This document shows, piece after piece, positions 35,735-41,282 of a DNA stretch of 64,000 bases; the first letter of the stretch is position 1, and the number at the start of each line of letters is the position of its first letter. Source of the DNA: Nitrospirota bacterium (lineage in GTDB: Bacteria > Nitrospirota > JACRHL01); the NCBI GenBank assembly GCA_029858285.1, contig JAOUFN010000004.1, positions 62,001-126,000 on the forward strand, in the 5' to 3' direction. The translations under genes and the position numbers were made by a program. The notes under the pieces were generated by a model. It saw only the letters and a program-made list of their open reading frames with translations. It searched no databases and was not told the DNA's origin.

Positions 35735-36714
<980 letters not shown>

Positions 36715-36715
<1 letters not shown>

Positions 36716-38178
36716 CACGAGAGTCCGTACTCCTTCCAGCGCCGGGTGACCCGTTCCACCACGTCCGCGTCCATGCGGATGGGCGTACCCCACTCGCGGT
36801 GGGTCTCCGGCGGCAATTTGTGAGTGGCGTCAATGCCCATCTTGCTGCCCAGTCCGGCCTCCGGACTGGCAAAATCCAGGTAATCAATGGGTGTGTGTTC
36901 CACCAGCACTGTGTCGCGGACCGGATCCACGCGGGTAGAGATGGCCCACATCACGTCGTTCCAGTCGCGCACGTTGATGTCGTCGTCCACCACTACGATG
37001 AACTTGGTGTACATGAACTGGCGCAGCACGCTCCACAGCCCGAACATGACGCGCCGGGCGTGGCCAGGATACTGCTTGCGGATGGAGATCACCGCCATGC
37101 GGTAGGAGCAGGCCTCCATGGGCAGATGCAGGTCCACCACCTCGGGGAACTGCTGTTTGAGCAGAGGCACGAACACGTCGTTGAGGGCCAGGCCCAGGAT
37201 GGCCGGCTCGTCCGGCGGCCGCCCGGTGTAGGTGCTCATGTAGATGGGATTGCGCCGGTGGGTGATGGCGGTGGCGGTGAACACCGGGAATTTTTCCACC
37301 TGGTTGTAATAACCGGTGTGGTCGCCATACGGCCCCTCGTCCGCGTAATCGGTGAGGGACACGTGTCCCTCGATGACAATCTCCGCCGTGGCGGGCACAG
37401 TCAGGGGCACGGTCTTGCAGTCCGCCACTTCGATTTTTTTGCCCCGCAACAGGCCGGCGAAGTGGTATTCGCTGAGGGAATCGGGCACCGGAGTGACTGC
37501 GGCAATGGTGGTGGCCGGTTCGCACCCCAGGGCAATGGCCACCGGGATCGGGTCGGGTTTTTTCTTGCCGACCCACGCCTGATGGTCCAGGGCGCCCCCC
37601 CGGTGGGCCAGCCAGCGCATGATGGCGCGGTTTTTCCCCAGCACCTGCATGCGGTAGATACCCACGTTGATGCGCCCGCCGTCCGGACCACGGGTGATCA
37701 CCAGCGGCCAGGTGATGAGCGGGGCGGGCTCCCCCGGCCAGCAGCCCATCACCGGCAGGCGCGTCAAATCTACCTGATCGCCGCTGAGCACCACCTCCTG
37801 ACAGGGGGGGCGCGACACGGTTTTGGGTGGCATGTTCATCATCGCCTTGACCAGCGGCAGCTTGTCGAAGGCGTCCATCATCCCCCTGGGGGGTTCCGGC
37901 TGGCGCAGGGAGGCGAGCATCTCCCCCACCTGCCGCAGGCCGCCGGGGGCGATCTCCAGGCCCATTTCGATGCGCCGCACGCTGCCGAACAGGTTGATCA
38001 GCACCGGCCAGTCGTACCCCTTGGGGCGCTCGAACAGCAGCGCCGGGCCGTTCCGGGCCAGCACGCGACTGCCGATCTCGGTCATTTCCAGGTGCGGATC
38101 GACCTCGGCCGCGATGCGCCGCAATTCCCCCTCTTTTTCCAGACGTTTGAGGAACTCCCGCAGATCGGCGTAGGGCAT
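36715..38178 (-). CDS. ubiD: UbiD family prenylated-FMN decarboxylase
   Basis: A 487-residue protein, normal UbiD length, starting [22 protein letters not shown]. It decarboxylates 3-polyprenyl-4-hydroxybenzoate in ubiquinone synthesis, using the prenylated FMN made by UbiX. Conserved parts are [39 protein letters not shown], the Glu-rich [10 protein letters not shown], the [12 protein letters not shown] segment with the catalytic Glu-Arg-Glu region, and HVMW-like [13 protein letters not shown] near the end. The ATG shares a base with the ubiA stop (TGATG). No ubiX is visible in this window. The function fits the upstream ubiA. Confidence 0.93.
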
Positions 38179-39050: not shown

Positions 39051-39362
39051 GGCGCGGGCCGTTTGCCACGCAACCCGGGCGCGACCGGGTGCGGCGGGGG
39101 CGGACGCGGAATGGTTTACGACCGGGCGGAAACCCAATGGGCAACCCTGACAAAAAAAGGGGGAGAAAACCCGCCCGATGGTACGTTTCGGGGCGCGGCG
39201 AGTCAAGGCGACCAGGGGGGGCGCCGCCGCCAGGCAACGGGGCGACAGGGCAGGGGAGCATTTACCGGCGCGGCCGTGGCGTCTATAGTGGTGGCGACCG
39301 TGCTGGCACGGGCGTGCGCGGTTGCGGACGCCGATGTTGTCCCCCCACCGCGAGAGGCCCCC
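39051..39362. other. Divergent intergenic region ubiA / deacetylase fusion
   Basis: The stretch contains the leaders of two divergent genes. Apart from a possible N-terminal extension of ubiA (to 39137) no coding content was recognised. A plus-strand promoter match is listed separately. Confidence 0.5.
39261..39289 (+). promoter_or_regulatory. Candidate promoter for the GNAT/deacetylase gene
   Basis: TTTACC (39261-39266) and TATAGT (39284-39289) are 17 bases apart, a good sigma-70 spacing, about 74 bases before the predicted start. Only the motif supports this. Confidence 0.4.
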
Positions 39363-41282
39363 TTGATCCGCTTTCGTTACCTGTTTGGAATTGGCCGCGA
39401 CCTGGACCGCCGTCAGGTCGAGGAGGCGCAGGACATCTATCGCCGCTGCTTCCCCTACGCCCCCGAATACGCGGACCGCATCGGAGAATGGCTGGCGCGT
39501 TCACCGCGTCGTGATCTGGAGCCGATCCTGTTGCTGGCCCTGGGGGCGCGTGCAGTGATCGGCTTTAGTTGGGTGATGTATTTCCCCGACCTGCGTTACG
39601 CCTACCTGGACTACCTGGCCAGCGATCCGGGACGTTCCGCGCGGGGCATTGGCGGCGCCCTCTACGAGGCCACCCGCGAGGTGCTGCAACAAAAAGGCGC
39701 CCGCGGCCTGTTCCTGGAGGCCCCCCACGACGACCCGGAACTGCTCAAGGATCCCTCCCGTGCGCCGGTGAACCACAAGCGCATGCTGTTTTACGAGCGC
39801 TACGGGGCCCTGCCGGTGGTCGGTACCGCGTTTGACCGCACCGCCACCACCGCCAACGAAGGCTGGATGACCCACCTGGTGTATGACAGCCTGGGCCGCC
39901 GGGCGGAACTGCGCGGTGGCGATGCCCGCAACTTTGTGGGCGCCCTGTACCGGCGCAAATACGGCCTCAACCCGGACAACAAGGTGCTGTCCGGCATCAT
40001 CGCATCGTTCCGCGACGGCCCGGTGAAGCTGCGCCAGCCAAAGAAGGGCCGGGATGTTGGCGGGGATGCGGGGGACTCCGGGGACGCTGCTTCCAGGCCC
40101 GCCAAGGCTTCCGCCAGCAAAACCGTCAAGTCGCCCGCCAAATCGCCCGCCAAAGTGACTGCCAAGGGTGCTTCTGGCAAAGCCTCCGCCACCAAAACCG
40201 TCAAGTCACCCGCCAAGGCCCCCGCCGCCAAGGCAACCAAAGGCACCATCGTCAAGCCTCCGGTCGTGGACGTGGTGCGGCGCATCTATCCGGTCAAGCT
40301 GGTCACCAATGAGCGGCATTTTTTGCACCACATGCGGGAAAAAGGCTATGTGGAGCGCCCGGTGCGCATGGACGCCGTGTTGCGCGGGCTGGAAGGGCTG
40401 GCGGTGGAGCAGGTGCGGCCGCACCACTTTGGCGAAGCGCCCATCCGCGCCGTTCACGCGGCGTCCCTGATCGGCTACATGGCGCGAGCCTCCAGCCGCC
40501 TGCAGGCCCGGCAGTTGATCTATCCCACCGTATTCCCCATGCGCCGCCGCCACCGCCCGCCCCGCGAGTTCGAGATGCGCGCCGGATACTACTGTCTGGA
40601 CACCTTCACCCCCCTGGGGCACAACACCTACGCCGCCGCGCGTTCCGCCGTTGACACCGCCCTCACCGGCGCCAATCTGGCGCTGGACGGCGAGCGCTAT
40701 GTCTATGCCCTGTGCCGTCCCCCCGGCCACCACGCCGAACCCAATGCCTGGGGCGGTTTTTGCTACTTCAACAACGCCTCGGTGGCCGCCCACCACCTGT
40801 CCGCCCACGGCAAGGTGGCGCTGCTGGACATCGACCACCACCACGGCAACGGCAGCCAGCAGATTTTTTACCAGCGCAACGACGTGCTGGTGGTGAACCT
40901 GCATTGCCACCCGGATTTCGCCTATCCGTACTTCAGCGGCTTCGCCGACGAACGCGGGGAGGGGGCGGGCAAGGGGTTTAACCGCAACTACCCCCTGCCC
41001 CCCGGCACCGGCGACAAGGAGTATCTGAAGGCGCTGGCCGAGGCGCTGCGTGACATCGCCCGCTTCAAGCCGGAATTTTTTGTGGTGTCGGTGGGGTACG
41101 ACATCATGCGCGGAGACCCCACCGGCTCCTTTGCGGTCACTTCGCGGGGGATGCGCAAAATCGGTGAACAGTTGGCGGCGTTGCGCCTGCCTACCCTGCT
41201 GGTACAGGAAGGGGGATATTCCCTGAGCAACCTGCGTCAGGGTTCACGCGCCTTCATCACCGGCCTGACCAGTATTTGGTAA
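39363..41282 (+). CDS. GNAT acetyltransferase fused to a histone deacetylase-like enzyme through an H1-like linker
   Basis: About 639 residues from TTG 39363 (GAGAGG just upstream; start uncertain). Residues 1-215: a GNAT-type domain with LDYLASDPGRSARGIGGALY (acetyl-CoA loop) and LFLEAPHDD. Residues 225-295: a linker made almost wholly of Lys, Ala, Pro, Ser and Thr with repeats such as KTVKSPAK, resembling the tail of histone H1. Residues 300-639: a class II-type deacetylase domain with RPPGHHAEPNAWGGFCYFNN (His456/His457), LLDIDHHHGNG (Asp491 and His493 as zinc ligands) and Asp580 in GYDIMRGDP. Both enzyme parts look intact. Likely targets are acetylated proteins or acetylpolyamines; the linker may bind DNA or RNA. 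It is transcribed alone, divergent from ubiA. Confidence 0.85.
   Translation: MIRFRYLFGIGRDLDRRQVEEAQDIYRRCFPYAPEYADRIGEWLARSPRRDLEPILLLALGARAVIGFSWVMYFPDLRYAYLDYLASDPGRSARGIGGALYEATREVLQQKGARGLFLEAPHDDPELLKDPSRAPVNHKRMLFYERYGALPVVGTAFDRTATTANEGWMTHLVYDSLGRRAELRGGDARNFVGALYRRKYGLNPDNKVLSGIIASFRDGPVKLRQPKKGRDVGGDAGDSGDAASRPAKASASKTVKSPAKSPAKVTAKGASGKASATKTVKSPAKAPAAKATKGTIVKPPVVDVVRRIYPVKLVTNERHFLHHMREKGYVERPVRMDAVLRGLEGLAVEQVRPHHFGEAPIRAVHAASLIGYMARASSRLQARQLIYPTVFPMRRRHRPPREFEMRAGYYCLDTFTPLGHNTYAAARSAVDTALTGANLALDGERYVYALCRPPGHHAEPNAWGGFCYFNNASVAAHHLSAHGKVALLDIDHHHGNGSQQIFYQRNDVLVVNLHCHPDFAYPYFSGFADERGEGAGKGFNRNYPLPPGTGDKEYLKALAEALRDIARFKPEFFVVSVGYDIMRGDPTGSFAVTSRGMRKIGEQLAALRLPTLLVQEGGYSLSNLRQGSRAFITGLTSIW

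Follow-up and report, generated by a model that had tools for sequence, protein, structure and literature searches.

What does a bacterial protein act on if one half of it should add acetyl groups and the other half should remove them? The question is raised by a gene in a 64,000-nucleotide stretch of DNA of a Nitrospirota bacterium (GCA_029858285.1, contig JAOUFN010000004.1, positions 62,001 to 126,000; hereafter the window), whose product joins a GNAT acetyltransferase domain to a zinc deacetylase of the HDAC/acetylpolyamine amidohydrolase (ApaH) type through a lysine-rich segment (Table 1). The first-pass annotation read this segment as a histone-H1-like DNA- or RNA-binding arm and proposed that the enzyme sets the acetylation state of a nucleoid protein, or that the segment is its own substrate. 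The architecture itself is sound: a single open reading frame carries both domains, and the family is conserved. The TTG start codon lines up in the alignment with the ATG start (MIRF) of a relative (L001) and is preceded by a Shine-Dalgarno-like sequence. As had been stated, the gene stands alone, with ubiA divergent upstream and purQ downstream. The promoter match ascribed to it does exist but the evidence for it is weak, and two promoter-like sites were found in the region of the fusion gene versus 0.5 expected from shuffling. No Rfam families were found around the gene. A protein of the FGE-sulfatase type (formylglycine-generating-enzyme-like) is encoded downstream of ubiD.

Table 1. Coordinates of the fusion gene, of its parts and of related loci (positions are those of the window unless a locus is named).
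Feature	Position	Strand	Basis or remark
GNAT–HDAC fusion gene	39363..41282	+	639 aa, TTG start, no internal stop
Sigma-70-like promoter match, weak	39261..39289	+	TTTACC-17-TATAGT, 9/12
GAGAGG, Shine-Dalgarno-like	39352..39357	+	5 nt before TTG; sequence
GNAT domain, residues 1-170	39363..39872	+	Pfam, profile and fold matches
Acetyl-CoA pyrophosphate loop ARGIGGALYE, residues 93-102	39639..39668	+	alignment
Conserved helical extension, residues 171-227	39873..40043	+	aligned in all full-length members
Linker, residues 228-303 (76 aa)	40044..40271	+	absent in relatives
Lys-rich linker core, residues 243-296	40089-40250	+	composition
Duplication copy 1, 49 nt	40103..40151	+	internal repeat in linker
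Duplication copy 2, 49 nt	40178..40226	+	86% identical to copy 1, 75 nt downstream
HDAC/ApaH-type domain, residues 304-639	40272..41279	+	Pfam, structure-profile matches, tree
Glu404	40572..40574	+	equals polyamine-contacting Glu106 of M. ramosa ApaH; aligned with 3q9b
RPPGHH, catalytic His pair H456/H457	40716..40733	+	sequence
Zinc ligands D491, H493 (DIDHHHGNG)	40833..40841	+	sequence
Zinc ligand D580	41100..41102	+	sequence
Gatekeeper position PTG, residues 586-588	41118..41126	+	replaces PIS (bacterial ApaH) or PEG (HDAC10)
Catalytic Tyr619 (EGGY)	41217..41219	+	sequence
FGE-sulfatase-type protein	35735-36793	-	downstream of ubiD
Glutaminase	L043:3715-4500, L044:4136-5053, L045:3746-4714		L044 by Pfam Glutaminase (E=1.7e-116), other two by sequence likeness
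Fusions with insert inside GNAT domain	L061:916-2913, L062:856-2850		Planctomycetota
KamA–ATP-grasp–GNAT gene set	L076:6290-12363, L091:4789-8790, L098-L108, L126:4115-8868		
Methyltransferase–ATP-grasp fusion, 655 aa	L084:5226-7190 (G000:C26)	-	window's own genome
Rhizobial GNAT and ApaH-like gene pairs	L112:2432-3948, L128:2443-3984, L129:2420-3948		

In the window protein the Pfam profile Acetyltransf_1 matches residues 21-120 with 20.7 bits, which is exactly the cut-off, and the GNAT domain alone scores 23.2 bits against the Pfam GNAT profile. Acetyltransf_1 also matches all 11 members of our family alignment (A1; best 2e-9), and at the level of the family the GNAT assignment is firm. The pyrophosphate loop of motif A (Q/R-x-x-G-x-G/A) is present as RGIGG in the window protein and as RGRGIGAAL or RGTGVGGAL in other members, with a serine in place of the first Q/R in the window lineage; G95, G97, L100, Y101 and E102 are invariant across the alignment. 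AlphaFold models built from alignments of four and two rows, from which the loci found by genome search were left out, reached pLDDT values of 51 and 49; we use them for no more than secondary structure, the disorder of the linker and the broad match in fold. A Foldseek search with the model of residues 1-227 (pLDDT 49) gave 152 matches with E<=0.001, the best 50 of which are all acetyltransferases. With the RGIGGALYE loop kept and a GNAT fold recognised at low confidence, the prediction of acetyl-CoA binding stands. Among solved structures, the profile of residues 57-123 finds OrfE (7ypu) first (E=1.1e-6) and nourseothricin acetyltransferase (5c82) third (E=1.1e-3); by profile, these streptothricin-type acetyltransferases are some of the nearest GNATs of solved structure. 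Unlike the fusion, they are standalone enzymes without a deacetylase, and 7ypu is only about 24% identical to the fused GNAT in the fold alignment. The GNAT domain is followed by a conserved extension with predicted helices at residues 185-200 and 207-214, so that the true linker begins only at residue 228.

The C-terminal half matches Pfam Hist_deacetyl over residues 330-634 (E=1.9e-72). All zinc ligands and the His pair, which had been noticed from the start, are indeed present, as is the catalytic tyrosine. The half shares with bacterial ApaH (cluster 4; PDB 6phr, 9gkz, 3q9b) the HDAC fold, the zinc ligands, the His pair, the RPPGHH and EGGY motifs and the length of the extended L2 loop (the polyamine-specificity loop, PSL), which shows only small gaps relative to these three structures, and its sister clade is formed by these enzymes. 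Acetylpolyamine amidohydrolases are also its nearest solved relatives (E=2.5e-71). Together with Glu404, the counterpart of Glu106 of M. ramosa ApaH (numbering from PMC11532494), and with SpeG among the Foldseek matches of the low-confidence GNAT model, these likenesses would fit an enzyme of the polyamine pool, whose GNAT half would acetylate putrescine, spermidine or a similar compound and whose HDAC half would restore the free amine. However, the PIS gatekeeper motif of ApaH is absent, and PTG takes its place in the window protein and in all other members in which this region is present. The Asp163 of the R95-D163 dimer salt bridge is replaced as well (by Asn in the window protein and by Arg in the f25 members), and the Glu106 equivalent, kept in the window lineage, is not retained beyond the family to which the window's protein belongs. 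None of the members has a recognised polyamine synthesis gene as a neighbour. With the PIS gatekeeper and the salt-bridge Asp missing, the HDAC half is not simply an ApaH, from which the fusion also differs in its N-terminal GNAT domain and its own clade, and a role in polyamine turnover appears unlikely. The specificities of both halves are not readable from sequence at such a distance.

Among the genomes sampled, a search for the same domain order, which the first-pass annotation had suggested, recovered the fusion from 7 of 296 Nitrospirota, members of three families, and from 8 of 246 Planctomycetota. The gene of one of the Nitrospirota (G208) is broken up by stretches of N, and in another open frame (in G428) the GNAT domain is without its first half. 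The nearest relative, from a Nitrospirota MAG, is 66% identical in the GNAT and 74% identical in the HDAC domain and is likewise flanked by ubiA/ubiD and purQ. A glutaminase gene lies just upstream of the fusion in three Nitrospirota genomes, all from a single family. A tree of 64 HDAC domains places those from fusions together on one side of a branch (98/95), and the grouping was recovered at 99/99 after plasmid-borne standalone relatives had been added. This branch is sister to the cluster-4 acetylpolyamine amidohydrolases and falls outside the ApaH clade; standalone HDACs of the fusion genomes fall elsewhere in the tree. A single branch of this kind fits a single origin of the fusion. The GNAT–HDAC fusion is not represented by any NCBIfam model, and no bacterial example is described in the literature searched, in which coverage of subscription journals was thin; in a survey of bacterial classical deacylases (PMC11532494), the words "fused" and "domain architecture" are absent and GNAT is mentioned only three times. 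In this family, classical bacterial deacetylases gain a fused acetyltransferase partner that is conserved in its lineage. The two halves presumably share a substrate, so the fusion offers a handle on the targets of the uncharacterised deacylases in this branch.

In Bacillus, a GNAT and a classical zinc deacetylase, AcuA and AcuC, acetylate and deacetylate acetyl-CoA synthetase as separate proteins (for AcuC, PMC11532494 and PMC13039410). The fusion could be a reversible switch of this kind in one chain, the GNAT half acetylating and the HDAC half deacetylating lysines of a target protein. In having one GNAT and one classical zinc deacetylase, the fusion repeats precisely the AcuA/AcuC combination of B. 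subtilis, cluster-4 enzymes also deacetylate peptides (in the case of PsApaH, some peptides; PMC11532494), and the PTG gatekeeper is without the polyamine-type residue of PIS or PEG. In contrast to the two Acu proteins, however, the fusion is one protein, and AcuC belongs to cluster 2c whereas the fused HDAC lies next to cluster 4, as the sister of acetylpolyamine deacetylases. The window's genome has a standalone HDAC (L109) in another part of the tree, none of the loci viewed showed a recognisable acs or acu neighbour, and the gene context in Planctomycetota is one of amine metabolism. We therefore regard a protein-acetylation switch as somewhat improbable.

In favour of the nucleoid model stands the lysine-rich linker. 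Its reported length of about 70 residues is correct for the whole linker, of which the Lys-rich part makes up about 54. This core consists of 22% K, 28% A, 15% S, 11% T and 9% P, has a net charge of +13, much like the tails of H1-like proteins, and is unique in the window among all ORFs of at least 100 aa. However, the nearest relative (L001/L005) has some 20 ordinary residues in place of the linker, and no Lys-rich segment was found in any other fusion member aligned; one of them (L059) carries a different, A/R/P-rich insert at the same GNAT/HDAC junction. Low-complexity inserts come and go in this family, and a function that the family shares cannot reside in the window linker. Likewise, since relatives lack the linker, it cannot be essential to the core function, whether as a DNA-binding arm or as a substrate. 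The linker has a pLDDT of about 30, is without predicted structure in the model and is predicted to be disordered, and its internal duplication suggests recent growth. The best explanation is that it is a recent, repeat-grown, disordered spacer of one lineage and no functional module; as such a module, the histone-like linker was rejected. The absence of the linker from the nearest relative, which the first-pass annotation itself had named as decisive, brings down its DNA- or RNA-binding arm and its self-substrate model, and the nucleoid-protein target is further contradicted by the relatives' gene context and the sister group, which point to small amines. We consider this hypothesis highly improbable for the window protein and close to excluded as the function of the family. 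In two Planctomycetota fusions, an Ala/Arg/Pro-rich insert of about 80 residues lies inside the GNAT domain.

The gene context that points to small amines comes from Planctomycetota. In G453 (L076), genes for a KamA-family aminomutase, two ATP-grasp ligases (A and B), the fusion and a further GNAT follow each other on one strand. G440 (L075) has KamA, the fusion and ATP-grasp A in order, and in G428 (L079) ATP-grasp B precedes the fusion. The ligases beside the fusion are Ddl-like. In NCBIfam, KamA comes closest to lysine 2,3-aminomutase, with 495 bits against an equivalog cut-off of 525.4, and because it falls below this cut-off its substrate is unproved. When the fusion genomes alone were counted, 13 of the 15, including the window's own, have a KamA relative with at least 46% identity; no match was found in G296 and G476. 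The KamA of the window's genome is 59% identical to that of G453 and unlinked to the fusion. In this genome the fusion, KamA and a methyltransferase–ATP-grasp gene lie on three different contigs, so the amine context is borrowed from relatives.

The fusion also leads to an unnamed cluster that comprises a KamA-family gene, two ATP-grasp ligases, a GNAT and, optionally, the GNAT–HDAC protein. The set of KamA-family, two Ddl-like ATP-grasp and small GNAT genes recurs with or without the fusion in Planctomycetota and Nitrospirota; sets without it were found in further Planctomycetota and in one of the Nitrospirota (G009). It looks like an undescribed pathway to a lysine-derived amide. In the Nepsilon-acetyl-beta-lysine pathway, AblA and AblB are a lysine 2,3-aminomutase-family enzyme and a GNAT, respectively. 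The Planctomycetota and G208 loci resemble that system in having a KamA-family gene and a GNAT in one cluster but differ from it in their extra ATP-grasp ligases, in the occasional deacetylase and in a KamA that scores below the AblA equivalog cut-off.

Against this background, we favour, at about an even chance, a bifunctional soluble enzyme of small amines that both adds and removes acetyl groups and in which the linker is a mere spacer. The N-terminal GNAT domain would use acetyl-CoA to acetylate a primary amine, and the C-terminal zinc amidohydrolase domain would take acetyl off a primary amine; both would act on one small diamine, lysine- or beta-lysine-like and possibly a polyamine. The acetyl group could mask the omega-amine reversibly while the aminomutase and the ATP-grasp amide ligases work on the rest of the molecule. 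We infer the activity, the substrate, the order of steps and the carry-over of the Planctomycetota context to the window's genome; based on the domains, the sister family and the gene context, the small-amine reading appears to be the most economical. The streptothricin-type acetyltransferases matched by the GNAT profile, and the neighbouring GNAT and ApaH-like genes of rhizobial plasmids described below, also count in favour of this reading. Its more specific form is tentative and, in our view, doubtful: a single protein might install and remove an N-acetyl group that masks the omega-amine of a metabolite of the lysine or beta-lysine type. Its partners would be the KamA-family aminomutase and the Ddl-like ATP-grasp amide ligases, and the pathway, shared by Nitrospirota and Planctomycetota, would be an undescribed one.

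Several candidate partners of the fusion were rejected. ATP-grasp A, found in 6 of the 8 Planctomycetota that carry the fusion but also in 36 Planctomycetota genomes that lack it, is no obligate partner; the Fisher p for the co-occurrence is 4e-4 with relatedness ignored. The window's own genome encodes a 655-aa protein (L084) in which a class I methyltransferase is fused to a Ddl-like ATP-grasp domain; its full-length relatives come from 7 further Nitrospirota genomes and from 6 of Planctomycetota. As an obligate partner it was dismissed too: it occurs in 6 of 7 Nitrospirota fusion genomes but only one of its six Planctomycetota carriers encodes the GNAT–HDAC protein as well, and the two genes are never neighbours. 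We retain it merely as a lead. Another candidate, partnership with RLAN (PF14401)/RimK ATP-grasp proteins, was dropped, RLAN being present in 5 of 15 fusion genomes and at no fusion position.

The same two activities occur side by side, with the GNAT first, on three rhizobial plasmids, where a separate GNAT gene lies directly upstream of an ApaH-like deacetylase gene. Unlike the fusion, these pairs are two genes, and the GNAT of one of them (L112) has no detectable alignment to the fused GNAT. The pairs lie in operons that resemble those of amine catabolism, with an aminotransferase gene upstream and, in two of the three, a 3-keto-5-aminohexanoate cleavage protein.
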